The notes under the pieces are model-generated. The model was not told the DNA's origin. It worked only from the letters and a program-made list of their open reading frames with translations, and made no database searches. From NCBI GenBank assembly GCA_022823045.1, contig JAJDXW010000145.1, positions 1-38,436 of the forward strand: 38,436 nt of DNA, in the 5' to 3' direction. The position numbers and the translations under genes are program-made. This stretch comes from Gammaproteobacteria bacterium (lineage in GTDB: Bacteria > Pseudomonadota > Gammaproteobacteria > HK1). This document shows, piece after piece, positions 9,773 through 36,754 of this stretch (positions are counted from its first letter, which is position 1; every line of letters starts with the position of its first letter).

Positions 9773-10909
9773 CTAGAGGCCGAAGCAGGCCCGGAACGCC
9801 CGGGCGTTCTCCCGCATGAGGTCGAAATAGAGGTCGGGACCGTCCTCGAGCGCGGCCCCGAGCGGGTCCAGGGTCCCCGTCGCCGCGCCGGTGCCCTCCA
9901 CGAGGGTCCGGACCAGGCGGGGTTCGAACTGGGGCTCGGCGAACACGCAGGTCGCCTCCGCGCCGGTGATCTTCTCCCGGATCTCGGCGAGCCGGGCGGC
10001 CCCGGGCGACTGGTCCGGATTGACGGTCACGGAGCCCACCGCGCGGAGGCCGTACCGGATGTCCAGGTACTGCCACGCGTCGTGGAACACGATGAACCCG
10101 CGATCCCGCACCGGGGCGAAGGCCTCCTCGAGCTCTTCGTCAAGGGCACGAAGCCGGGCCCTCACCGCGGCAGCGTTCTCCCAGTAGACACTCGCCCGCT
10201 CGGGATCGATCCGCGACAGGGCGTCGGCCATGGAATCGACGATCACCTCCGCGTTCGCCGGGTCCAGCCAGAGGTGCATGTTGTATTCACCGCTGTGGTG
10301 CTCGTGCCCGTCTTCGTGGTGAACGTGGGCCTCGCCTTCCTCGTCGTCCGCACCGGCGCGCCGGTCCTCGTCCTCGTCGTCGTGGTGTTCACCCTCTTCC
10401 TCGTCCTCGTCGCCGTGGTGCTCACCCTCTTCCTCATCGTCGTGGTGCTCGCCCTCTTCCTCGTCGCGGCCTTCGGCGTGCTCTTCGTCCTCCTCCATCT
10501 CGTCGCCCTCGCCATGATCGTCGTCATGCTCGTCCCACGCTCCGCCCTCGCGGAACCCGTGCAGCATGATGCCCTCGGCCCGCGAGAGCTCGAGGATGTA
10601 GGCGTCAGTCGCGAGCGCCTCGAGCGGCTGGACGAGAAACGACTCGAGGTCCTCGCCCACCCATACCACGATGTCCGCATCCTCGAGTGCCTTGGCGTCG
10701 GACGGACGGAGGGAGAAGGTATGCGGCGAGGCGCCTCCCGGCACCAGGAGGACCGGCCGGCCCGTTCCGCCCATGACCCCCGCGAGCAGTGAATGGATCG
10801 GCTTGATGCTCGCCACCACGCTCGGTGCCTCCGCCGAGGCTGCGACATTCGGTCCCGTCGCGAGCGCCGCGACCCCGATTCCAAGCAACAGGTTGCGAAA
10901 GCGTGGCAT
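9773..10909 (-). CDS. znuA: Zinc ABC transporter substrate-binding protein with long His/Asp/Glu-rich loop
   Basis: VVASIKPIHSLLAGVMGG...ASPHTFSLRPSDAKALEDADIVVWVGEDLESFL...EYNMHLWLDPANAEVIVDSMADAL...GFIVFHDAWQYLDIRYGL. Acidic/His-rich insertion in the usual ZnuA position. Confidence 0.94.
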   Translation of the reverse strand: MPRFRNLLLGIGVAALATGPNVAASAEAPSVVASIKPIHSLLAGVMGGTGRPVLLVPGGASPHTFSLRPSDAKALEDADIVVWVGEDLESFLVQPLEALATDAYILELSRAEGIMLHGFREGGAWDEHDDDHGEGDEMEEDEEHAEGRDEEEGEHHDDEEEGEHHGDEDEEEGEHHDDEDEDRRAGADDEEGEAHVHHEDGHEHHSGEYNMHLWLDPANAEVIVDSMADALSRIDPERASVYWENAAAVRARLRALDEELEEAFAPVRDRGFIVFHDAWQYLDIRYGLRAVGSVTVNPDQSPGAARLAEIREKITGAEATCVFAEPQFEPRLVRTLVEGTGAATGTLDPLGAALEDGPDLYFDLMRENARAFRACFGL

Positions 10910-10966
10910 GTCGTGCTTCCTCTCGGTTGTTTCCGGGGTGGCGTCCAGTCGGCCGCGCTCGCGGGA

Positions 10967-11020
10967 TGATACATCATTACGTTTGATACATCATTACGTT
11001 TGGGCGATGATGTAACGTCG
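10967..11020. promoter_or_regulatory. Candidate Zur operator cluster in the divergent znuA/zur intergenic region
   Basis: Exact tandem 17-mer TGATACATCATTACGTT at 10967-10983 and 10984-11000, followed by an inverted related half GATGATGTAACG at about 11006-11018. Lies between znuA (-) and the Fur-family gene (+). Confidence 0.65.
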
Positions 11021-11044
11021 GTTCGAGCGGAATCAGGAAGCGCC

Positions 11045-11539
11045 ATGGCAGCCGAATCGTCACCATTTCCGGGGCGGCGACACGATCACGACGCGTGCAT
11101 CTCGGAGGGCCTCGCCCGCGCCGAGGAGATCTGCCGCGTGCGGCGCGAGCGCCTCACCGAGAATCGGCGGGCGGTGCTCGAGCTGGTCCTCGCCGAGCAC
11201 CAGCCGGTTGGCGCCTACGACATCCTGGAGCGGTTCGACTGGAGGGGCCGGAGGCCGGCTCCCGCCCAGATCTACCGCGCCCTCTCGTTCCTCGAGACCC
11301 TTGGAATCGTCCACCGCATCGCGAGTCGCAACGCCTATGTGGCGTGCAGCGGGCCGAAGGAGGGGCACGGCACCGTGTTCCTCGTGTGCACGGAGTGCGG
11401 CACGGTCGCCGAGCCGAACGGAGCGGGGGTGGGGCGCTCGGTCCGCAAACTTGCGGACGATTCCGGGTTCGAGCTCCACACCCACATCCTGGAGGTGACC
11501 GGACTCTGTCCGGAATGCAGTCAGGCGAGCGGGGTCTGA
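11045..11539 (+). CDS. zur: Fur-family transcriptional regulator, probably Zur
   Basis: RLTENRRAVLELVLAEHQPVGAYDILERF...PAPAQIYRALSFLETLGIVHRIASRNAYVAC...FLVCTECGTVAEP...HILEVTGLCPECS: Fur fold with two CxxC pairs; adjacent to znuABC. Confidence 0.9.
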   Translation: MAAESSPFPGRRHDHDACISEGLARAEEICRVRRERLTENRRAVLELVLAEHQPVGAYDILERFDWRGRRPAPAQIYRALSFLETLGIVHRIASRNAYVACSGPKEGHGTVFLVCTECGTVAEPNGAGVGRSVRKLADDSGFELHTHILEVTGLCPECSQASGV

Positions 11540-11543
11540 ATCC

Positions 11544-12314
11544 GTGGCGAGCCGGAATCCGCTTATCGAGGCCTGCGCGGCCGGTGTGCGCCGGGGCGGG
11601 CGATGGATTCTGCACGACGTCGACATCGAGGTCGCGCCCGAGGAGGTGGTGACCCTCATCGGTCCGAACGGGGCGGGCAAGACCACCCTGGTGCGAGTGC
11701 TGCTCGGGCTCCTCAAGCCCGATGCGGGGACCGTGCGACGCGGCGAGGCGGCGAGCATCGGCTACGTGCCGCAGCGGGTCCATTTCGACCCCACCCTTCC
11801 GCTCACTGTCGAGCGGTTGATGAGCCTGACCGACCGGCGCCCGGTCGAGGCGGTTGCCGGGGCGCTCGAAGAGACCGCGGTCGGGCACCTGATCACCGCA
11901 CGGGTGTCCGACCTGTCGGGCGGCGAGTTCCAGCGCGTCCTCCTCGCCCGGGCTCTCATGCGCCTGCCGAACCTGCTCATACTGGACGAGCCCGTGCAGG
12001 GAGTGGACTACACGGGGGAGGCGGAGCTGTACGAGCTCATCGGCGGGATCGTCGAGCGGCGGGGCTGCGGAGTGCTCATGGTGAGCCACGACCTGCACAT
12101 CGTGATGGCGTCCACGGATCGCGTCGTCTGCCTCAACCGCCATGTATGCTGCACCGGAGCGCCCGAGGAGGTGGTCGCTCACGACGAGTTTCGCCGCCTG
12201 TTCGGTCCGAATGCGGCCGCCGCCGCGGTGTACCGGCACATTCACGATCACGTGCACGACCTCGCCGGAGAGGTGGCGCGGGCCGGAGAGCGGGGAGCGG
12301 ACGGTGCTGGATGA
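11544..12314 (+). CDS. znuC: Zinc ABC transporter ATP-binding protein
   Basis: Walker A GPNGAGKTT, signature LSGGEFQRVLLARAL, Walker B LLILDEP, GYVPQ; His-rich C-terminus (HIHDHVHD); znu context. Confidence 0.93.
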   Translation: MASRNPLIEACAAGVRRGGRWILHDVDIEVAPEEVVTLIGPNGAGKTTLVRVLLGLLKPDAGTVRRGEAASIGYVPQRVHFDPTLPLTVERLMSLTDRRPVEAVAGALEETAVGHLITARVSDLSGGEFQRVLLARALMRLPNLLILDEPVQGVDYTGEAELYELIGGIVERRGCGVLMVSHDLHIVMASTDRVVCLNRHVCCTGAPEEVVAHDEFRRLFGPNAAAAAVYRHIHDHVHDLAGEVARAGERGADGAG

Positions 12315-13107
12315 CTTCTTCGTGCGCGCGCTCCTCGCCGCGGCGGGGGTGGCGTGCATCGCGGCCCCGGTCGGCTGCGTCCTGCTGTGGCGCCGGATGG
12401 CCTACTTCGGCGACACGATGGCCCACTCGGCTCTGCTCGGGGTAGCGCTCGGGGCGGTTCTGGGTCTCGGACTCGGGGTCGGCGTGTTCGGGGTCGCCAT
12501 CGCGGTGGCGCTCCTCCTCATCGTTCTCGAGCGCACCGCCCACCTCGCGACCGATTCCCTGCTGGGCGTCCTTTCCCACACTACGCTGGCCCTCGGCCTC
12601 GTCGTGCTTGCTCTCTCGGCGAGCAGTTACCGCCACGATCTCATCGGCTTTCTCTTCGGCGACGTGCTGGCCGTGACCGCCTGGGACCTCGCCGTCATCT
12701 GGGGGGGAGGCGCGGCCGGCCTCGTCGTGCTCGCCACGATCTGGCGCGGACTCGTGGCCGCCACCCTCCATGCGGATCTCGCGCAGGCGGAGGGCATCCC
12801 GGTGCTCCGCCTTCAGGTGATCTACGTGGTGCTGATGGCCGCGATCGTGGCGGTGGGCATGAAGGTCGTCGGGGTGCTGCTCATCGTCGCGCTCGCGATC
12901 ATCCCCGCGGCAGCCGCGCGTGCGCTGTCGCGTACCCCCGAGCAGATGGCGATCGTCGCCTCGATGATCGGAATCGCTTGTGGAGTGCTCGGTCTCTTCG
13001 GCTCACTCTGGTTCGACACACCCTCCGGGCCATCGATCGTGGTGGCCGCGATGGTCATCTTCTTCGCGAGCCTCGCGGTCCGGCCGCTCGCCCGCGCCTT
13101 CGGATAG
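12304..13107 (+). CDS. znuB: Zinc ABC transporter permease
   Basis: GTG start at 12304 overlapping the znuC end. CVLLWRRMAYFGDTMAHSALLGVALG...GFLFGDVLAVTAWDL...GMKVVGVLLIVALAIIPAAAARAL typical of ZnuB/ABC-3 permeases. Confidence 0.93.
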   Translation: MLDDFFVRALLAAAGVACIAAPVGCVLLWRRMAYFGDTMAHSALLGVALGAVLGLGLGVGVFGVAIAVALLLIVLERTAHLATDSLLGVLSHTTLALGLVVLALSASSYRHDLIGFLFGDVLAVTAWDLAVIWGGGAAGLVVLATIWRGLVAATLHADLAQAEGIPVLRLQVIYVVLMAAIVAVGMKVVGVLLIVALAIIPAAAARALSRTPEQMAIVASMIGIACGVLGLFGSLWFDTPSGPSIVVAAMVIFFASLAVRPLARAFG

Positions 13108-23321: not shown

Positions 23322-24644
23322 ATGACCGAGGACGGCATGCGCGCGACGAGGAGAACGGTACTTCGTTCCTTCGCCGCCGGATTCCTGCTCGCACCGTGGC
23401 CGGGCATCCCCGGCGCGGCGGCCGCGGCCGGCCCCGGCGAGTCGGTGCAGGCATCGGGACCCGCGGGACCGGACGGGCTGACCGACGGGGAGGTCGTTCT
23501 CGGCATGTCCGCCGCGTTCTCCGGCCCGTCGCGAGGGCTCGGGATCGAGCTGTATCGAGGGGCCGCCGCGTACTTCGCCCACGTCAATCACGGCGGCGGC
23601 GTCAGGGGCCGCCGGGTCACGCTCCGGACCTACGACGACGGCTACCAGCCCGACCCTTCCGTCGAGAACACCGTGACCCTGATGCTCCGGGACAACGTGT
23701 TCGACCTGTTCGGCTACGTGGGCACGCCCACCGTGACCCGGGTGCTGCCGATGCTCAAGAAGTTCCAGGAGAAGCAGGTCTACCTCTTCTTTCCGTTCAC
23801 CGGTGCCCAGCCCCAGCGCGAGCCGCCCTACGGGGACTTCGCGTTCAATCTGCGCGCCTCCTACCGCCAGGAGACGGCCGGCCTTGTCGACAACTTCGTG
23901 CGCATCGGCCGGCGGCGCATCGCGGTCTTCTACCAGGCCGACGCCTACGGCCGGAGCGGCTGGGCCGGCGTGCGGCGGGCGTTGAAGAGGTACGGCGAGC
24001 GGATCGCCGGGGAGGCGACGTACCGGCGCGGACAGAAGTTCACCGGAAGCATGCGCAAGCAGGTCGAGATCCTGAAAGCGGCCGCCCCGGACGCGGTGAT
24101 CTGCATCGGCGCTTACGCCGCGTGCGCGGGGTTCCTGCGCGACGCGGTGGACCTCGGCCTCAAGGTCCCGATCGCCAACCTCTCCTTCGTCGGAAGCGAG
24201 AACCTCCTGAAGCTGATTACCGACGGGCGGGACGACGCCGAGCGGTACACGGAGCTGCTGGTGAACTCGCAGGTCGTGCCGAGCTACGAGGACGTCTCCA
24301 TGCCGGCGGTGCGCGAGTACCGCGATCTGATGGACCGCTACGACCCCCGGCCGCCCGCGGAGCTCGTGCGGGAGAGCTACGCGCCCTTTCCGTACAGCTT
24401 CGTCAGTCTGGAGGGCTTCCTCGATGCCAAGCTGATGGTCGAGGTGCTCCGCCGCCTCGGCGACGACCCCGCCCGGAGCCGGATCGAGAGCGCCGTCTTC
24501 ACCGTGAAGGATTTCGACCTCGGCGTCGGGGAGCGGGTGTCCTTCGGCGCCGAGCGGCGCCAGGGCCTCCAGCGGGTGTACTACACCGTCGTCGAAGGCG
24601 GCCGCTTCATCACCCTCGACAACTGGGAACAGAGGTTCTCGTAG
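23322..24644 (+). CDS. LivJ-like (type 1 periplasmic-binding fold) substrate-binding protein, putative Tat substrate
   Basis: RRTVLRSFAAGFLLAPWPG Tat-like signal; VLGMSAAFSGPSRGLGIELYRGAAAYFAHVNHGGGVRGRRVTLRTYDDGYQPDPSVENTVTLML...IAVFYQADAYGRSGW. Confidence 0.88.
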   Translation: MTEDGMRATRRTVLRSFAAGFLLAPWPGIPGAAAAAGPGESVQASGPAGPDGLTDGEVVLGMSAAFSGPSRGLGIELYRGAAAYFAHVNHGGGVRGRRVTLRTYDDGYQPDPSVENTVTLMLRDNVFDLFGYVGTPTVTRVLPMLKKFQEKQVYLFFPFTGAQPQREPPYGDFAFNLRASYRQETAGLVDNFVRIGRRRIAVFYQADAYGRSGWAGVRRALKRYGERIAGEATYRRGQKFTGSMRKQVEILKAAAPDAVICIGAYAACAGFLRDAVDLGLKVPIANLSFVGSENLLKLITDGRDDAERYTELLVNSQVVPSYEDVSMPAVREYRDLMDRYDPRPPAELVRESYAPFPYSFVSLEGFLDAKLMVEVLRRLGDDPARSRIESAVFTVKDFDLGVGERVSFGAERRQGLQRVYYTVVEGGRFITLDNWEQRFS

Positions 24645-24645
24645 C

Positions 24646-25383
24646 ATGAAAATCCAGAAGCTCTTTCAGAAGACGCTGTTCGGAACCTTCTTCCTGTTCG
24701 GCGTGATCGCGGTATCGACCTCGGTTCTTTGCATCTACACCGTCGATACGCACCTTTCCAGCGAATACGAGAGCAACAGCAAGGGCATTGCGAAGACCAT
24801 CGCCGACGCGAGCGTGGACATCATCCTCAACCGGGACCTGTCCGCCCTTCAGTCGCTCATCGACCAGTTCGTGGAGATTCAGGGCATCAGCTACATCTAC
24901 ATCACGAACGAGACAGGCGAGTTCCTCGCCCACACCTTCGTGCCCGGGATCCCCGAGGAGGTCCGGTCGAGCGATCCGGCCAGCACGGAGACGGTCGAGC
25001 GAAGCCTGCCGGGCATGGGCGACTTCATCGAGGTGAGCAGCCCCATCCTCGCCGGGGTGGCGGGCGCGGTCCACATCGGGATGGACACCGGTCTCATCGC
25101 GCTCAAGGTCCAGCGGGCGATCGGCCAGCAGGCCTACCTCATCTCGATAATCTTCATCCTCGGCATCCTCGCCGCGATCTGGTTCGTCGGCCTCGCCGGC
25201 AAGTCCGTCGATTTGCTCCTCGCGTACGCGGTGAGCCTTGCGCGCGATGGCGGCGAGGGCGCTGCATCGGACGAAAGGCTGATCGAACGGGACGACGAGA
25301 TCGGCGAGCTCGCCCGCCTCTTTCTCCATTTCGCGGAGTCGCGGGGAAAGGCCCCCGACGCCCTGCCGGCCGGAAATGACTGA
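24646..25383 (+). CDS. Membrane receptor-like protein: two TMs, periplasmic sensor region, HAMP-like C-terminus, no output domain
   Basis: TM1 TLFGTFFLFGVIAVSTSVLCIYTV; extracytoplasmic region; TM2 AYLISIIFILGILAAIWFVGLAG; C-terminal ERDDEIGELARLFLHFAE resembles the end of HAMP; then stops. Starts 1 nt after the binding-protein stop. Confidence 0.75.
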   Translation: MKIQKLFQKTLFGTFFLFGVIAVSTSVLCIYTVDTHLSSEYESNSKGIAKTIADASVDIILNRDLSALQSLIDQFVEIQGISYIYITNETGEFLAHTFVPGIPEEVRSSDPASTETVERSLPGMGDFIEVSSPILAGVAGAVHIGMDTGLIALKVQRAIGQQAYLISIIFILGILAAIWFVGLAGKSVDLLLAYAVSLARDGGEGAASDERLIERDDEIGELARLFLHFAESRGKAPDALPAGND

Positions 25384-25515
25384 TCGTCATCGCGAGCGTT
25401 GCGTCGGGAGGGCCGGCGCCGGGCCGTCGCGCCCGCGGGTGGCTCGCAACCGGTTCGGGTCGGTTCCGTTCGCCGTCAGGCGGCGGGCGGTGCGCACGAC
25501 CGGCGGAGAGCGGTC

Positions 25516-26833
25516 ATGATCGGCCGGCACATTCCCCGGGCGCTCGTCATCGTGCTCTGCACCACGCTGCAGATCTGCTTCGGAACCGTGTACGCGTGGA
25601 GCTTCTTTCAGTCGCTCCTGGTCAAGCAGCTCGGATGGTCGTTCACCGAGACCGCCGCGGCATTCAGCATCGCCATATTCTCACTCGGCATGTCGGCGGC
25701 GTGGGCGGGCGCAATGCTGCCCCGGCTGGGTCCGCGGAAGCTGGCGCTGACCGGCAGCCTGATGTTCTCGGGAGGCTATCTCATCGCCGGCCTGTCCCTT
25801 CAACTGGACTCGATCTGGCTCTTCTTTCTCGGCTACGGCGTCATCGGGGGCGCCGGGATCGGGCTCGGATACGTCACCCCGGTGGCCACCGCCGTCAAGT
25901 GGTTTCCCGACCGCAAGGGGCTCGCGACCGGAATCGTGGTCATGGGGTTCGGCGTGGTCGCGCTGCTGCTGAGCAAGGTGCTGGCGCCGGTGCTGCTCCT
26001 GGCCACCGCGGGGGAACTGCCGCTCGTCTTTGCCTGGCTCGGCGTCGTGTTCGCCTGCATCCTGATCCCGTCCAGCCTGGCGTTGAGCAATCCGCCGGCG
26101 CCCGATGGAGCGGCCTCCGCGGTCGCCGCGAAGGGCTCGGCAGAGCCCGACGAGCCCGACTCGGTCTCGGCGTACCTTCGCTCGCGCGAGTTCACGATCA
26201 TGTGGCTCGTCTTCTTCTTCAACATCGCGGCGGGGATCTCCATCATCAGCTTTCAGTCGCCGCTCCTGCAGGACGTCTGGGGGCTCGCGGACCCGTCGAT
26301 GGAGCCGGAGACGCTCAGCGCAGTACGGGGCGACCCTGATCGCGGTCAGCTCGCTCTGCAACGGGGCGGGGCGGCTGCTCTGGGGGCTGCTGTCGGACCG
26401 CATCGGCCGCGTGCGGGTGTTCCGGATCCTTCTCGCGAGCCAGATGGTGGTCTTCGGCATCCTGATGACGGAACGCGATCCGTGGATCTTCTCGGCGCTC
26501 GTGTGCTACGTCCTGCTCTGCTTCGGCGGCGGATTCGCGACGATGCCTTCGTTCGTCCTGGACGTCTTCGGGGCGAAGCGGATGTCGGTGATCTACGGAG
26601 CGATCCTCACCGCCTGGGCGGCGGCGGGGATCTTCGGCCCCCTCTACGTGGGATACCTGAAGGATGGATACCCCGACCGGGCCATCATCTATTGCTTCCT
26701 GATCGGAGTGCTGATCCTGGGGGCCGGCTATGCCGTTTCCTATCTGCTGAGCGACGAGCGCATCCGGCTCGGCCGGCCGACGGTGGAGGGCACCCTTCGC
26801 CGGTACGGCATCCCGGTGCCCGACCGGGGTTAG
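25516..26833 (+). pseudogene. OFA (oxalate/formate antiporter)-type MFS gene with apparent frameshift near 26317
   Basis: Frame 1 MIGRHIPRALVIVLCTTLQICFGTVYAWSFFQ...SPLLQDVWGLADPSMEPETL; frame 2 then continues the fold AQYGATLIAVSSLCNGAGRLLWGLLSDRIGRVRVFRILL...GIPVPDRG*. Dropping one base at about 26317 joins them. Confidence 0.85.
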
Positions 26834-27318
26834 AAAAACACCGTCAGGAGGACGATGCTGGTCAGCCCGCCGGCCATGAAGCCCCCGGCGCTGACCACCC
26901 CGGATACCGTAGCGAAGTCCGCGAGGCGGAAGGTCTGCACCTCGACGGTGAACAACACCCGCGTTCGATCGACCTCGCCCTCGACGAATCGCTTCAGTCC
27001 GTTCTCGGCCCCGTGCGCCTCCTTCACCGAGACCATGGTCACCAGGATCATCGTCAGCGCCGAGGCGAGGATTCCGATCCCGAACACCATGACGGTCAGC
27101 AGGGCGGCCCAGTGAAAGGCTCCTTCACTGTTGCCCGTCGCCGTGCTCATGAATCCGATGACGAGCGCCGCGCCGCCCGCATTGCCGAGCAGCAGCAAAC
27201 GGGTCGACTCGATGATCATCCGGAACATGATGCCGCGCCGCTGGGCGACGACCTTGTAGAGCTCGCGCAGCCATTCCTCGCCGGTCTCCTCCGCGAAGAA
27301 TTCGTCCACCTTCTTCAA
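26830..27318 (-). CDS. Uncharacterised small membrane protein
   Basis: 162 aa, MKKVDEFFAEETGEEWLRELYKVVAQRRGIMFRMIIESTRLLLLGNAGGAALVIGF..., several hydrophobic helices, no recognised family. Stop overlaps the convergent OFA gene stop. Confidence 0.65.
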   Translation of the reverse strand: MKKVDEFFAEETGEEWLRELYKVVAQRRGIMFRMIIESTRLLLLGNAGGAALVIGFMSTATGNSEGAFHWAALLTVMVFGIGILASALTMILVTMVSVKEAHGAENGLKRFVEGEVDRTRVLFTVEVQTFRLADFATVSGVVSAGGFMAGGLTSIVLLTVFF

Positions 27319-27350: not shown

Positions 27351-28511
27351 CTAGCTGCCGAAGTCGGTCAGCCTGATGTAGGTCGAACCGGTGTTCGTCC
27401 CCGGCAGGAAACCCACCGGCCAGTCGTCGATGGCCACCGGGCCGGACGTCAACGCCTGGGCCATGAAGCTCTCCCGCGTCGGTGCCGCATCGCCCATGCG
27501 CTCCAGCACCGAGATGACGAAACGGCCGAGGATGTAGCCTTCCAGGGACACTTCGTTCAGCATGGGCTCGATCGACTCTCCCTGGCGCCCGTACTCCGCG
27601 CGCAGCGCCCGCTGGTAGCTCCGCACGATGTGGGTGCTCGTGTCGTTCGCATCCGGCACCACTTCGGTCACCAGGATCCGGTCGCTCGGTGCGGCGATCC
27701 GGTTCCTCAGCTCGTAGGAGAGAACGAAGGACAGGTTGGCCATGATGTATTCATGGCCCAGGGTGTTCGCAAGGTTGATGATCTCGGCGTTGGCCGCATA
27801 GGTTCCGACGAGCAGGATCGCGTCGAGGTCGGCCTTCGCGAGGGAGAACAGGCTCGCGTGGACGGCGTGCGTGTTGCGCGAATAGGCGGTCTTCGCCAGG
27901 ATGGGAAGGTCGTGCTGTTCGAGCACCGACCTGAAGTTCCTCAGCACGGAACGGCCGAAGGCATCGTCCTGGTAGATGATCCCGAGACGGCTCTTGCCGC
28001 GGTCGCGGACGATGTGCTCCACCAGCACGCGGGTCTCTTCGAGGTAGCCCGCCCGCAGGCTGATGACATTGGGAAACCGCGTGGCGTCGCGCAGGAAGTC
28101 GGCGCCCGTGACCTGCCCCACGAAGGGAATGTCGGCCGATCGCAGCACCGGTGCGATGCGCCGGGCCGTCGGCGTTCCCACCCCCCCGATAACGGCGAAG
28201 ACGTCGTTCTCGGACACGAACCTCTCCGCGTTGGCCGCCGCCAGCTCCGGTTCGTAGGCGTCGTCCAGGGAGAGGAGGTTCAGCCGCCGCCCGCCGATGC
28301 CTCCCTGCCGGTTCCGTTCCCCGAACGCGGCCAGAATGCCCTGCCGATAGCTGAGACCGAGATCGCGGGTCGGGCCGGAAAAGCAGGCGCTCTGTCCGAA
28401 GGTGATCGCATCCGGCTTCACGCCCGGCGCCGCGAGCGAGAGCCACGGGGCGAGCAACAGGGCCAAGCCGCAGGCCAGTGACGGGGTCGGCCATCGGAGC
28501 GTCCTCTTCAT
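27351..28511 (-). CDS. LivJ-like (type 1 periplasmic-binding fold) substrate-binding protein
   Basis: Signal peptide MKRTLRWPTPSLACGLALLLAPWLSLAAPG; ITFGQSACFSGPTRDLGLSYRQGILAAFGERNRQGGIGGRRLNLLSLDDAYEPELAAANAERFV...LGIIYQDDAFGRSVL. ATG at 28511. Confidence 0.9.
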   Translation of the reverse strand: MKRTLRWPTPSLACGLALLLAPWLSLAAPGVKPDAITFGQSACFSGPTRDLGLSYRQGILAAFGERNRQGGIGGRRLNLLSLDDAYEPELAAANAERFVSENDVFAVIGGVGTPTARRIAPVLRSADIPFVGQVTGADFLRDATRFPNVISLRAGYLEETRVLVEHIVRDRGKSRLGIIYQDDAFGRSVLRNFRSVLEQHDLPILAKTAYSRNTHAVHASLFSLAKADLDAILLVGTYAANAEIINLANTLGHEYIMANLSFVLSYELRNRIAAPSDRILVTEVVPDANDTSTHIVRSYQRALRAEYGRQGESIEPMLNEVSLEGYILGRFVISVLERMGDAAPTRESFMAQALTSGPVAIDDWPVGFLPGTNTGSTYIRLTDFGS

Positions 28512-28623: not shown

Positions 28624-30108
28624 TCATCCCTGCTCGCCGCTCTGTTTGCGCTTCTTGCCACCTTCCCCTTCGTCATGTTGCGGTTCCGTTCCGTCCGCCG
28701 CCTGGCCGTCACGCTGCCCTTGGTCCTGTCCCTGGTCCTGGTCCTGTCCCTGATTCCCGTCACCGGCGTGCGCCGCGGAAGCCCCGGGTCGCGTCTGCGC
28801 GTGCCCTTCGCCGGCTCCCGCGCCACCGCGCTGATGCTCCCCTTCGGACATCGTCTCGGACATCGGGCGCAGGTCCGCCTGCCGTGCGTAGGCTCCGTTG
28901 CGGCCGGCGGGGTGGCGGTGGGAGAAGATGGACGGCGTGTCGAAAACGAGGGACCGGGGGTTGGCGGCTCTCAGGTGGTCGCGTTCGCTGCCTTTCCGGT
29001 GAAACCGCCCGCTCATCAGGTGTCGATCCGACTCGACGGTCTCCATGGTGTGAACGCCCGCTCCGGCCGTCGAGGGCGCGAGCGTCTTGTCGACCCGGTC
29101 ACCCGGCCGATCGCTCACCGCGCCCGAGGGCGGGGCGCCCAGCGCGATGTCCGCCGGGATGAACCCTCCCGCATCGTCGATCATGTTGATGTCGATGGTG
29201 GACTCGCTGCCGGGGTTGACCGCCGCCAGGCTCGCCTCGTCGAAGATCATCCGCATGCGTTGCCAGTAGCGGGTGATGGCGACCTGGGTGGGATTCTTCC
29301 GGTACTCGGAGAGCAACGCCGAGAAGGCGCCGGCGGCGGCCTTCGCCTGGACGGTCCGTTCCCGGGCCTTCGCCTTGGCGCCGAGGACCATCGCCTCCGC
29401 CTGGCCCTTCGTGCGCGCGATCAACCGCTCCCGCATCGCATTCGCCATGCTCACCGCTTGGGCGCGCTCCGCGATCGCGTCGCTCACGTCCCGGAACGCG
29501 AAACGGGTCTCCTCGATCGGCTGCACGTCGACGATGTTGAGCGCGACCAGCTCCACGCCCACATCCAGGGACTCGAGCTGGGCGGCCACCTCGCCGAGCA
29601 GATGCCGTTCGATGATGTTGCGGTTCGAGGTCAGGATGAGATCGATGAAGTTCTGGCCGAGAACGTTGACCAGCCGCTCGCGCACGAGCATGGTGACCAG
29701 CAGGAGGGGATCGCTGCTCGCGAACAGCCGGGCTCTCAGGTTGTCGATCCGATACTGGAGGGCGAGGTCGACTTCGAGCAGGTTCGTGTCCCCGGACAGG
29801 AGCGTGAAGTTGACGGTGCTGCCTTCCCGGCTCGCGATCCGGTGCCGGACGATTCGCTTGACCTTGCGGATGTGCGCCCGCTCGACGAACGGGATCGCGT
29901 AGTGCCACCCCGGGCCGACGTTGTCGTCGACCACCTTGCCGAAGCGGGTGAGCACGCCGAGCTGCTCCTTCTTGACGATGTAGAAGCCGCTGCCGAGCAC
30001 GAAGAGGACGGCGACCGCGACGACGCCCCCGAGAATCTGCCGATGGTGCTTCCCGAAGAAGTCGAATCCGGCGTGGATGATGCGGGTGCTCGGCGGCAGT
30101 CCGTTCAT
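28624..30108 (-). CDS. SPFH/Band 7 (HflK-like) membrane protein with long low-complexity C-terminal tail
   Basis: ILGGVVAVAVLFVLGSGFYIVKKEQLGVLTRFGKVVDDNVGPGWHYAIPFVERAHIRKVKRI...FRDVSDAIAERAQAVSMANAMRERLIARTKGQAEAMV...; tail with GNQGQDQDQGQDQGQRDGQ. Confidence 0.9.
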   Translation of the reverse strand: MNGLPPSTRIIHAGFDFFGKHHRQILGGVVAVAVLFVLGSGFYIVKKEQLGVLTRFGKVVDDNVGPGWHYAIPFVERAHIRKVKRIVRHRIASREGSTVNFTLLSGDTNLLEVDLALQYRIDNLRARLFASSDPLLLVTMLVRERLVNVLGQNFIDLILTSNRNIIERHLLGEVAAQLESLDVGVELVALNIVDVQPIEETRFAFRDVSDAIAERAQAVSMANAMRERLIARTKGQAEAMVLGAKAKARERTVQAKAAAGAFSALLSEYRKNPTQVAITRYWQRMRMIFDEASLAAVNPGSESTIDINMIDDAGGFIPADIALGAPPSGAVSDRPGDRVDKTLAPSTAGAGVHTMETVESDRHLMSGRFHRKGSERDHLRAANPRSLVFDTPSIFSHRHPAGRNGAYARQADLRPMSETMSEGEHQRGGAGAGEGHAQTRPGASAAHAGDGNQGQDQDQGQDQGQRDGQAADGTEPQHDEGEGGKKRKQSGEQG

Positions 30109-31019
30109 TGCTCCGCCCCGGGGGGCTGGTCGGGGATCTCCCCGCTGTCGAGATACTTGAACAGCTCGTTGTCGGCCGGAAGCATCAGGGTCGTGTTCCG
30201 GTCGATGATGAGGTCGTAGCTGTCGAGCGCGCGGATGAACTTGTAGAACTCCGGATCCTCGCGGTACGCCTTTCCGAGCAGCGCCGCCGCCTCGGCCTCT
30301 GCCTCGCCGAGGATCGTCGTCGCCTCGGCATGGGCATCGGCCACGAGCTTCTCGTGCTCGTTGATCGCGAGCGCCTCGATGCGGATGGCCATCTCCTCCC
30401 CTTCGCTTCGATAGCGGGTGGCGATGCGGGCGCGCTCGGAGATCATCCGCTGGATCACGCTCGGCCGGTTCTCCGGGGGCAGGGTGTACTCGACGATTCC
30501 CGCCTTGAGCACCTCGATGCCGTAGTTGTCCTTCGCGATGGGTGCGACCCGGGCAAGGATTTCCCGCGACGCCTCGCCGAGGTCTTCGTGCTCCAGGCCG
30601 AGGCCGATGAACGCATCGCGAGCCTTGTTGCTGATGACCACCCCGCTGCTCGAGAGGTACAGATCCTGCAGCCGGGCGGCTGCATTGCCGCCGGTCCGGA
30701 CCGCTTCGACGAACAGGATCGGGTCCTCGACCCGCCAGAGCAGGTACCCGTCGTACAGGACGCTCTTCTGGTCCTCGGTGATCAGCTCGTGGGGAAGGCC
30801 GGTCAGGGTGTGAATTCGGCGGTCGACCTTGTAGACCTTGGAGATGGGACGCGGCCACTTGAGGTGGAGACCGGGTTGCCGGACGGGCGGCGCGATCTTG
30901 CCGAAATGCGTCAGCACTCCCTGTTCGGTCTCCTGGATGACGTAGACGCTGTCCCAGGCGATGAGGCCGAGGGCGGTCGCCGCGATCGCGGCGACGATTC
31001 GTTTTCCGTTCGAAGTCAC
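30105..31019 (-). CDS. SPFH/Band 7 (HflC-like) membrane protein
   Basis: GTG at 31019: VTSNGKRIVAAIAATALGLIAWDSVYVIQETEQGVLTHFGKIAPPVRQPGLHLKWPRPISKVYKVDRRIHTLTG...ISERARIATRYRSEGEEMAIRIEALAINEHEKLVADAHAEATTILGEAEAEAAALLGKAYREDPEFYKFIRALDSYDL, close to HflC. Confidence 0.92.
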   Translation of the reverse strand: MTSNGKRIVAAIAATALGLIAWDSVYVIQETEQGVLTHFGKIAPPVRQPGLHLKWPRPISKVYKVDRRIHTLTGLPHELITEDQKSVLYDGYLLWRVEDPILFVEAVRTGGNAAARLQDLYLSSSGVVISNKARDAFIGLGLEHEDLGEASREILARVAPIAKDNYGIEVLKAGIVEYTLPPENRPSVIQRMISERARIATRYRSEGEEMAIRIEALAINEHEKLVADAHAEATTILGEAEAEAAALLGKAYREDPEFYKFIRALDSYDLIIDRNTTLMLPADNELFKYLDSGEIPDQPPGAEQ

Positions 31020-33397
31020 TGGTCCTCCCCCCCGTTCCTGCGGGGACGGTCGTCCCGGCCGGCGCCGGCGTGGTGCCCTCCGGCGCCCGCTCGTTTCTTC
31101 CACAGCGCAACCTTGCTCAGGCTCTCCCGGTCAGGAACGATGATCTTGGGATTGCCGGACAGCGCGCTCTCCAGCTTCTCGCGCCACAGCATGTTCCGTA
31201 GCACCTCGGGCGCGCTTCGCACGGCCGCCGCCACCACCGAGATGGCCCCGGCCTCCGCATCCGCCTTGACCACGTTCTTGTAGGCTTCGCCTTGCGCCTG
31301 CTTCACTTCGTACTCGGCGTTGCCGTGCGCCCGGGGAATCAGCGAGACCAGGAACCGTTGGGCGTTGACGATGATCCGCTCCCGGTCCTCCTGCGCGCTC
31401 GAGACTTCCCGAAACGCGCTCAACGTCTCGGACACCGGGCTGACCGCGAGCAGGTTCACCTTCACCAGCTCGACGCTGCGAAGCGCCGGAATCGCTCCGC
31501 CGTCGGCGGTCTCGAACATGCTGCGGAGGTCATCCTCCAGCTCGGCGCGATGCACGTTGAGGAGGCGCTCCAGGCCTCTCGCGGAGATGAAGGTGCGGAC
31601 GTGGTCCCGGATCCCGTCCTCGATGATGCGCGGCGCGTTCGACACCCGGTAGTGGTAGACGTAGGGGTCCTTCACCCGATACTGAACGTTGACCTCGACG
31701 GTGAGCAGGTTCAGGTCACCCGACACGTGCTCGTACGGCGCGAGGACGGACTTCACCTCCCGGACCGGCCATTTGTCGACCTGAACGAAGGGGCGGGGAG
31801 CGAGGTAGTGCAGCCCCGGTGGCAGGTCCCGCCACCAGACCTGGCCGAGCAGGCGGCCGTAGCCGACCGAGCCTGGGGGGATGGTGGTGAAGCCGGATGC
31901 GAGAAAGAGAGCGACGAGCGCGGCGTAGAGGATGATCCCCGCCGGCGTGGCCGGGCTCAGAAACCGGAGGAAGGAGAGCGTGGAGCGCGGCGGCGAGCCG
32001 GCGGCTTCACGGGCGGTGAGGCGGCGGGTCATGCGTTCCCATCCCACCCCCCAGCGCCGGAAGACGGGGCGCAGGTTGAGCATCATGTCGTCCCAGCCGC
32101 TCTTGAGCGCGCCGGCGCGGAACCGCCAGATGATGAGCGCGAGGAGGAGGAGGGCGCCGGCCCACTGCAGGAACAGGAGGGCCGGCGACTCCGATGCCTG
32201 CAGGTTCACGGTCACCGAGTAGCCGGTGGCGAGGATCAGGACGTCGACCAGGATGCCCAGGATGACGGTGACCACGATCACCACGCCGACATAGACGGAG
32301 GCGAAGCGCACCCCGAACTGATTCATGATGATGGCGATGGTGCCGGTGTTGGTCGCCGGGCCGGTCATGAGAAAGATGAGCCCCGCCCCGGGGCTGAAGC
32401 CCTTGGCGACCAGCGCGGCGGCGATCGGCGTGCTCGCGGATGCACAGATGTAGAGGGGAACTCCGACAAGAACCATCACCGGATAGGAAATCCAGCGGGC
32501 GTACTCGTTCGCCATCATGTCGCTCGGAATCGCCAGGTAGAGCACCCCTCCGAGGGCGATTCCGACGAGCAGCGCGAACAGGATGTCGTCCGCTATCTCG
32601 ACGAATCCGTAGCGGAAGATGTGGCTGACGATCGTCCTGAAGCTCGGCAGCCGACGTTCCGCGGGCGCTTCGACGACGTCGGTCCCGGCGGCTTCCCCGC
32701 CGGCCAGCATCTCGGCACGATAGAAGTCCGGCTTGATCCAGGATGCGGACTTCCATCGGCTGACGGCCACGACGAACCCCTTCAACCAGCGGACGGAAGC
32801 CTCCTTCATCTCCGAGGGGCTGATGTAGCAGTCTTCCTCGCCCGGAACGAGGGGCCGGTGGACGCCGTGGTCGTGATCATGGTCGTGCCCATGGTCATGG
32901 ACGTGGTCGTGGTCGTGGTCGTGATCGTGCTCGTCGTGCCGGGCTCTGGCGGCGGCTTCGTCCCGATCGTCCCGGATGAGGCCAATGCAGAAGATTCCGG
33001 CGACGACCGCGGTGATGAAGCTGATCACGGGGCGGATCACCGCCGCCGCGAATCCGAAGAACGCGTTCGTGACCAGGATCGAGTCCGCCCCTGTCTCGGG
33101 GGCGGTGATCAGGAACGACATGCAGGAAGAGCGGGAAGCTCCCTTCCTGCGCATCTCCGCGACCACCGGCACCACCGAGCAACTGCACAGCGGCACCGGC
33201 ACGCCGATGGCCGCGCTGGTGGAGACCGACTTGAGACTGTCATGGCGAAGCCAGCGAAGGATCGCCTCGCGGGAGATGAAGACGTGAATCAGGCCCCCGA
33301 GGAACAGCCCGAGCAGCAGCATGGGGGCCAGGAGCAGGAACGACTGCCAGAGGAAGTCGAAGAACCGAGTGAAGGCGTCCAGGACTGTGGCAGTCAA
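31016..33397 (-). CDS. Fusion: SO_0444/DUF318-type (metal efflux-like) permease + C-terminal SPFH (HflK-like) domain
   Basis: N-terminal part: APMLLLGLFLGGLIHVFISREAILRWLRHDSLKSVSTSAAIGVPVPLCSCSVVPVVAEMRRKGAS...FLITAPETGADSI plus HDEHDHDHDHDHVHDHGHDHDHDHGVH and CASASTPIAAALVAKGFSPGAGLIFLMTGPATNTGTI. C-terminal part: TIPPGSVGYGRLLGQVWWRDLPPGLHYLAPRPFVQVDKWPVREVKS...VEVNVQYRVKDPYVYHYRV...FREVSSAQEDRERIIVNAQRFLVSLIPRAHGNAEYEVKQAQGEAYKNVVKADAEAGAISVVAAAV. TTG 33397 start inferred from AGGAG 8 nt upstream. Confidence 0.9.
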   Translation of the reverse strand: MTATVLDAFTRFFDFLWQSFLLLAPMLLLGLFLGGLIHVFISREAILRWLRHDSLKSVSTSAAIGVPVPLCSCSVVPVVAEMRRKGASRSSCMSFLITAPETGADSILVTNAFFGFAAAVIRPVISFITAVVAGIFCIGLIRDDRDEAAARARHDEHDHDHDHDHVHDHGHDHDHDHGVHRPLVPGEEDCYISPSEMKEASVRWLKGFVVAVSRWKSASWIKPDFYRAEMLAGGEAAGTDVVEAPAERRLPSFRTIVSHIFRYGFVEIADDILFALLVGIALGGVLYLAIPSDMMANEYARWISYPVMVLVGVPLYICASASTPIAAALVAKGFSPGAGLIFLMTGPATNTGTIAIIMNQFGVRFASVYVGVVIVVTVILGILVDVLILATGYSVTVNLQASESPALLFLQWAGALLLLALIIWRFRAGALKSGWDDMMLNLRPVFRRWGVGWERMTRRLTAREAAGSPPRSTLSFLRFLSPATPAGIILYAALVALFLASGFTTIPPGSVGYGRLLGQVWWRDLPPGLHYLAPRPFVQVDKWPVREVKSVLAPYEHVSGDLNLLTVEVNVQYRVKDPYVYHYRVSNAPRIIEDGIRDHVRTFISARGLERLLNVHRAELEDDLRSMFETADGGAIPALRSVELVKVNLLAVSPVSETLSAFREVSSAQEDRERIIVNAQRFLVSLIPRAHGNAEYEVKQAQGEAYKNVVKADAEAGAISVVAAAVRSAPEVLRNMLWREKLESALSGNPKIIVPDRESLSKVALWKKRAGAGGHHAGAGRDDRPRRNGGEDQ

Positions 33398-33506: not shown

Positions 33507-33535
33507 ACAATAGCTATCCATTACGGACCTGTCAA
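33507..33535 (-). promoter_or_regulatory. Candidate sigma70-type promoter of the permease-SPFH operon
   Basis: Minus strand reads TTGACA-17 nt-TATTGT (TTGACA = 33535-33530, TATTGT = 33512-33507), about 110 nt upstream of the inferred start. Confidence 0.55.
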
Positions 33536-35605: not shown

Positions 35606-36754
35606 ATGGAGCCGACGAAACAGTCCGCAGCGGGATCAAGGATCCTCCCGTGGATTGTCGTCCTGTTGTCCCTATACGTGCTGCTCGTGGCGGTCGGCGT
35701 CATCGGCAAGGGGTTTCGCCACGCATTCGGCGGAGCCGAAGGCGTCGAGTCGCTGTTCGTGTTTGCAACGAATCCGTTTGTCGGACTCGTTCTCGGCATT
35801 CTCGCAACCGCGTTGATCCAGTCTTCCAGCACGGTTACCTCCATCATTGTCGGACTCGTAGCCGGCGGGATGCCGATTGCGGTTGCGATACCCATGGTGA
35901 TGGGTGCCAATGTCGGCACGACGGTAACCAACACGCTCGTCAGCTTCGGCCACGTGAGACGACCCGGGGAGTTCCGGAACGCGTTCGCCGCCGCCACCGT
36001 GCACGATTTCTTCAACCTTCTCAGCATCTTGATATTCCTGCCGCTGGAGCTCGCGTTCGGCGTTCTCGAAATGCTGAGTGGCGCCATGACCCATGTCGTC
36101 GAGAACATCGGGTCGGTCGATGCTTCGGGAAAGGGCGTGTTCAAGGTCGCCGTCGGCGCCGGTGTCGGCTTCGTCGAGTCGTTGACCTCCTCGCTACCGG
36201 AGCATTGGGCAGGCTCGATTCAAATCGTGGCCGGGATTGCCCTCATTCTCCTGTCGATCATGTATCTCGGAAACACGCTGAAGACCGTGTTCGCGGGCAG
36301 GGCACGGAAATTCCTTCACACCGCCGTCGGCAAGGGTCCGGTCGCCGGCATATTCTCCGGTACTCTCGTCACCGTGCTGGTGCAATCGTCGTCGACCACG
36401 ACGAGCATTGTCGTGCCCCTGGCGGGAAGCGGGGTGATCGCACTCCGTCACGTCTACCCGTTCACGCTGGGAGCGAACATCGGAACGACGATCACGGCGC
36501 TGCTGGCCGCGACGGCCATTACAGGCGCCACCCATGCCGTTGCGCACCAGATCGCGATCGCGCATTTCCTCTACAACCTGCTTGGCGTCATCGTCATCTA
36601 CAGCGTCCCTTGGCTGCGAAGGATCCCGCCGGCGGGAGCGGAGTGGATTGCGCGGCTCGCGAGCGAGCGCAAATGGCTGGCCGTCGCATACATCCTGTGC
36701 GTGTTCTTCGGGGTTCCGGCCGCCCTCGTGTACTTGAAGGCGGGGCTGTCCTGA
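35606..36754 (+). CDS. Na/Pi cotransporter family protein (NptA-like)
   Basis: Two QSSST repeats (ALIQSSSTVTSIIVGLVAGGMPIAVAIPMVMGANVGTTVTNTLVS and VLVQSSSTTTSIVVPLAGSG...YPFTLGANIGTTITALLAA) diagnostic of the Na/Pi cotransporter family. Confidence 0.93.
   Translation: MEPTKQSAAGSRILPWIVVLLSLYVLLVAVGVIGKGFRHAFGGAEGVESLFVFATNPFVGLVLGILATALIQSSSTVTSIIVGLVAGGMPIAVAIPMVMGANVGTTVTNTLVSFGHVRRPGEFRNAFAAATVHDFFNLLSILIFLPLELAFGVLEMLSGAMTHVVENIGSVDASGKGVFKVAVGAGVGFVESLTSSLPEHWAGSIQIVAGIALILLSIMYLGNTLKTVFAGRARKFLHTAVGKGPVAGIFSGTLVTVLVQSSSTTTSIVVPLAGSGVIALRHVYPFTLGANIGTTITALLAATAITGATHAVAHQIAIAHFLYNLLGVIVIYSVPWLRRIPPAGAEWIARLASERKWLAVAYILCVFFGVPAALVYLKAGLS

Follow-up and report, generated by a model that had tools for sequence, protein, structure and literature searches.

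An SO_0444-type metal permease joined in one reading frame to an HflK-type SPFH domain, in a gene module that is present or absent among related genomes

In this study, we analyzed a 38,436-nucleotide stretch of DNA (the window), in which a single minus-strand gene (31016..33397) encodes a 793-aa protein composed of an SO_0444-type permease, a linker and an HflK-type TM/SPFH region, as defined by its open reading frame, Pfam and NCBIfam matches, and orthologues with the same junction. We consider the chances about even that this protein is a Zn/Cu exporter with a covalent tether to its own, dedicated SPFH assembly of the HflK/HflC type, probably a ring or dome that confines the exit side of the exporter. 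The permease and the SPFH protein are each known; as far as can be seen, their covalent combination and the removable module to which it belongs are undescribed. In the open literature, we found neither an SPFH-permease or HflK-transporter fusion nor an SO_0444 family protein that carries an SPFH domain, and the sole fusion retrieved by word search from an older survey of prokaryotic SPFH proteins was that of NfeD with a protease (PMC2636767).

The ORF reading of the window showed one frame without a stop from 33451 to 31016 on the minus strand. Comparison of the in-frame starts and their upstream sequences identified the TTG at 33397, which is preceded by GGAG (AACCAGGAGATGGTCGA-TTG), as the likely start, and the alignment of relatives with the fusion begins near this codon. 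An earlier note on this DNA had described one unbroken minus-strand ORF carrying both a permease and an SPFH domain, and its coordinates agree with the TTG start. A consensus scan upstream of the gene found a promoter-like site, TTGACA-17-TATTGT (33507..33535, minus strand), with 10 of 12 matching positions; this site is weak, as one was found against 0.6 expected by chance, and visual inspection showed similar sites upstream in other loci. When palindromes were searched for in the region before the fusion gene, a match was obtained in two close relatives only.

The permease part comprises residues 1-444 (32066..33397), its end being set by unfused relatives that stop just past it. It matched ArsP_1 (PF03773, DUF318 permease) above the curated cut-off at residues 29-402, counted from 33448 (E 5.7e-46), and the SO_0444 CuZnOut model (NF033936) with 321.9 bits against an equivalog cut-off of 300. 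The family model (351 positions), like the unfused relatives, ends about where the linker of the fusion starts. In all 12 fused genomes tested, NF033936 was above its cut-off, and a second copy above the cut-off was present in none of them. The permease part contains a PLCSCSVVP motif (33167..33193), both cysteines of which are invariant in all aligned rows, the ITAPETG and MTGPATNTG motifs, and a His/Asp-rich loop between the two permease halves (32855..32932) that is present in all orthologues with varying length; the cysteine and TAPETG/TGPATNTG motifs are shared with the SO_0444 transporters. These results bear out the claim of the earlier note that the N-terminal half is a DUF318/SO_0444-like permease with these features, and its proposed role in Cu/Zn export is supported by the family score. 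The substrate is thus presumably Cu/Zn, as judged from the family; SO_0444 itself is required for growth of Shewanella with ZnSO4 or CuCl2 (PMC3219624). A PDB sequence search for solved-structure relatives of the permease half returned none that was meaningful.

The permease is followed by a K/R-rich linker of about 42 residues (residues 445-486; 31940..32065), recognized by its net positive charge (12 K/R versus 4 D/E in the region) and its relaxed dN/dS, and then by a TM helix, an SPFH domain and a C-terminal coiled coil of the HflK type (31019..31939). Band_7 (PF01145) matched residues 542-696, counted from 33448, with 44.7 bits against a gathering cut-off of 23.6 (E 2.1e-11), which excludes a failure of the C-terminal half to match SPFH. 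In the PDB sequence search, the second half of the fusion aligned with E. coli HflK 94-351 (E 8e-22), and the match to QmcA was weak. The score for the HflK equivalog (TIGR01933), 125.7 bits, was below the cut-off of 159.4, as were those of three fusion orthologues (116.4, 124.3 and 129.5 bits). AlphaFold2 prediction of the fusion alone, from 11 sequences, had a pLDDT of 42, probably owing to too shallow an alignment.

An ordinary HflK has a cytoplasmic tail, a single TM helix and, in the periplasm, a large SPFH/coiled-coil domain. The fusion resembles the HflK of the E. coli HflK/C-FtsH complex (PDB 7vhp, 7wi3, 9cz1) in its TM helix, SPFH domain and C-terminal coiled coil, and differs from it in having a multi-TM permease where HflK has a Gly-rich cytoplasmic N-terminal tail. 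The excess of K/R over D/E fits a linker in the cytoplasm, from which a TM helix leads to an SPFH part in the periplasm; this predicted topology is based on hydropathy, linker charge and knowledge of the family.

Four further genes on the same strand follow the fusion. The first encodes an HflC-like SPFH protein (30105..31019; TIGR01932, 158.8 bits against a cut-off of 134.4; PDB HflC, E 2.4e-33), so that the fusion, like E. coli HflK, has an adjoining HflC-type partner, and its GTG start overlaps the fusion stop (GTGA). The second encodes another HflK-like SPFH protein (28624..30108; Band_7, E 1e-16; PDB HflK, E 3.6e-25), which is also below the HflK equivalog cut-off and whose ATG start overlaps the stop of the HflC-like gene (ATGA). 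From these overlaps, the module in the window is predicted to be partly translationally coupled. Next come a periplasmic binding protein of the Peripla_BP_6 type, which probably has a signal peptide and whose start is predicted (27351..28511; PF13458, E 3.3e-49), found at the same place in the other full loci, and a 162-aa membrane protein (26830..27318) that has no Pfam match over the cut-off and no NCBIfam match and, among the genomes searched, is tied to the fused form. This order (fusion, HflC-like, HflK-like, binding protein, 162-aa protein) is kept in all 11 other full loci. A tree of the SPFH domains resolved the fused, HflC-like and second HflK-like proteins as three clades, each with 100% support, and placed the HflC-like clade of the module next to housekeeping HflC; HflK rows from four loci (L008, L012, L022 and L023), probably in poor frame, were left out of this reading. 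The two downstream SPFH proteins assumed in the earlier note are therefore real, and its idea of a dedicated SPFH assembly gains support from three consecutive SPFH genes that are conserved and co-inherited as a module.

The neighboring genes point to metal transport. A ZIP metal transporter gene follows the module in 9 of the 11 other full loci, and none was recognized in the remaining two (L024 and L044). RND and MFP genes lie upstream in six of these loci, as does an OMF gene if the available sequence extends that far; the RND protein of L025 has a CusA/CzcA score of 1072 bits (cut-off, 701), and CusA/CzcA-type RND genes adjoin in several loci. In L044, a ZnuA gene is directly upstream, and ZnuC- and ZnuB-type genes are located farther on.

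Because the window genome also holds a separate, ordinary HflK/HflC pair elsewhere, the module is an addition and does not represent the cell's own HflK/C. The housekeeping HflK scored 298 bits against E. coli HflK and keeps the tail, whereas the two module HflKs scored 81-92 bits; the module further differs from E. coli HflK/C in having a second HflK-like gene. These observations bear on the main rival explanation, namely that the SPFH part recruits FtsH, with metal-dependent degradation of the exporter or of nearby metal-damaged proteins, the assembly being a second kind of HflK/C shell around FtsH. The three SPFH proteins all belong to the HflK/HflC type, and E. coli HflK/C, which reaches into the periplasm, has FtsH as its known partner (PMC12048511). 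However, the loci read showed no protease gene, the genome retains a housekeeping HflK and HflC, and the scores of the fused and second HflK-like proteins below the equivalog cut-off place them far from the FtsH-binding form, making this explanation unlikely. Coupling to membrane quality control, as suggested in the earlier note, may be regarded as one of several options.

We favor a model in which a complete SO_0444 permease would replace the cytoplasmic tail of HflK, with the HflK TM helix and the periplasmic SPFH part connected to the permease by the short basic linker. As an HflK-type subunit, the fusion would probably join its two SPFH neighbors, the HflC-like protein and the second HflK-like protein, in forming a mixed periplasmic ring or dome of HflK and HflC types, and the exit side of the exporter would be confined in a walled membrane patch, which the small membrane protein and the binding protein would possibly share. 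The likely effect would be local control of the exported metal, which, in loci with a neighboring CzcA/CusA-type RND pump, could be handed to that pump; alternatively, metal might be kept from nearby importers and from the open periplasm. The topology, the assembly of a cage, the position of the permease relative to it and the effect on transport are what we infer here from the predicted parts: the ring-building regions of HflK/C and an HflC partner are present, and the ring itself is a prediction from them. A more elaborate picture, in which exporters are built covalently into the wall of a three-protein HflK/HflC-type dome, the module is removable and spreads between phyla, and metal is passed to an RND pump or held in a walled periplasmic pocket, is tentative, and we give it somewhat less than an even chance.

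The nearest precedent for an SPFH assembly around a membrane transporter is that of stomatin domes, which hold AQP1 and UT-B (PMC12407830), and by analogy with these domes, a permease within its own SPFH cage, as the earlier note had imagined, is plausible. The stomatin case differs in that the transporter is a separate protein and occupies only some of the domes, while the link in the fusion is covalent; in addition, the SPFH part of stomatin is on the cytosol side and that of HflK-type proteins on the periplasm side. A permease on each HflK-type subunit might not fit inside a dome, and could lie outside it. The effect of SPFH assemblies on the transporters that they surround has been hard to study, partly since the link is loose and the cargo mixed; the fusion fixes its cargo covalently and has its partners in one gene cluster.

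Alternatively, the SPFH part might act only as a tether or microdomain that clusters the exporter with the RND pump, ZIP and the binding protein in a membrane patch without enclosing it. The RND and ZIP genes that adjoin the fusion in many loci are in keeping with this explanation, as is the established view of SPFH proteins as microdomain scaffolds (e.g., PMC10434171). Nevertheless, the fusion retains the cage-building region of HflK to E. coli position 351, and its HflC- and HflK-type partners are co-inherited, which leaves a tether without enclosure a small chance. Furthermore, the binding protein belongs to the module in every full locus, without an ABC transporter beside it, as might be expected if the binding protein and the SPFH part sensed a periplasmic ligand or membrane state and gated the permease, with caging being secondary; we consider such a sensor very improbable.

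When 85,462 species genomes were scanned, ten loci proved to carry this fusion, and one more was present in a genome of the window genome's family. Among 98 relatives of one fusion genome (G452), 14 were fused, with some overlap with the earlier loci, which brings the number of distinct fused genomes besides that of the window to 17 (G004, G451, G460 and these 14). Homologues of the same architecture, which the earlier note had proposed as a check, thus exist in assemblies from other species. Further copies were not found in 399 genomes of the window genome's own phylum, and the matches listed by a plasmid search were to ordinary HflK alone, none of the records covering the fusion. In an alignment of twelve fusions, residues are conserved on either side of the join and the linker is variable. 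Close pairs gave Nei-Gojobori dN/dS values of 0.05-0.08 in the permease, with 0.15 in a single wider pair, and of 0.12-0.16 in the TM helix and SPFH domain; in the linker, most values were 0.23-0.58, with 0.06 in a single pair. Purifying selection acts on both halves and the linker is relaxed; together with the recurrence of the junction, this indicates that selection has maintained a protein of two domains connected by a loose joint. Although the window genome assembly has 432 contigs and 7.3% contamination, an assembly or sequencing artefact that merged two genes is scarcely conceivable in view of the identical in-frame junction in the 17 other genomes, three of them records titled as chromosomes, and the purifying selection on either side of it.

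The relatives of G452 also included seven genomes with a permease that lacks the SPFH part. These unfused permeases stop within about two dozen residues of the junction (for example, ...SGYEDMLFNIRPLFKL* versus ...SGYEDLLLNLRPVAEPCKAFWGR... in the fused form), and a ZIP gene follows or lies close to the permease in all seven. The 162-aa protein was present in 14 of 14 fused and 0 of 7 unfused genomes (Fisher p 9e-6, a descriptive value since the genomes are related), and HflC-like copies in the unfused genomes were of the housekeeping type, at ~33%, or absent. In a comparison between L075 and L032, both flanks are ~90% identical in DNA and the permeases 83% identical in protein; the module, absent from L075, lies between permease and ZIP in L032, and RND genes likewise occur only in L032. 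In G463, the module is on a contig that begins inside the second HflK. As siblings at the same syntenic site hold only an unfused permease and ZIP, the SPFH part is, on this genomic evidence, a separate accessory unit attached in frame to a metal exporter, and because relatives without the module keep the permease, SPFH is dispensable for its usefulness. The SPFH tree fits a single origin of the fused SPFH part; fused and unfused rows are intermixed in the permease tree, so that gain or loss of the module, or allele exchange, may have occurred more than once. Sibling genomes with a closely related unfused permease at the same locus provide a natural control, and comparison of the two forms could test directly whether an SPFH dome alters transport. 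One genome contains two unfused permeases a few kb apart in opposite directions (L077, 7910-9322 and 13797-15044), with a ZIP gene near each.

RpoB of the window genome shared 73% identity with its counterpart from the L033 genome and, for most of the other genomes with a match, 55-59%; the window fusion was 67-71% identical to the fusions of all of these genomes. The greater conservation of the fusion than of RpoB suggests its transfer between phyla, a reading drawn from identities and not from a reconciled tree. Titles of the fused-genome records (MAG labels as deposited) name Latescibacterota, Gemmatimonadota, Terriglobia and Pseudomonadales. A marine-sponge source for the host genomes was also weighed, and the records consulted made no mention of one.

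Several other transport genes were noted. A zinc-uptake locus (9773-13107) about 18 kb from the fusion comprises ZnuA (9773-10909, minus strand) and, on the plus strand, a Fur-family regulator (11000-11539), an ABC ATPase (11544-12314) and an ABC-3 permease (ending at 13107). A second Peripla_BP_6 protein, 34% identical to the module binding protein, is followed by an sCache_3 protein (23322-25383), and at 25399-26833, MFS transporter matches in two overlapping frames may represent a frameshifted gene. Finally, a Na/Pi cotransporter gene was found near the module in both genomes of the window's family, on different sides (window, 35606-36754; L044, 12679-13827).
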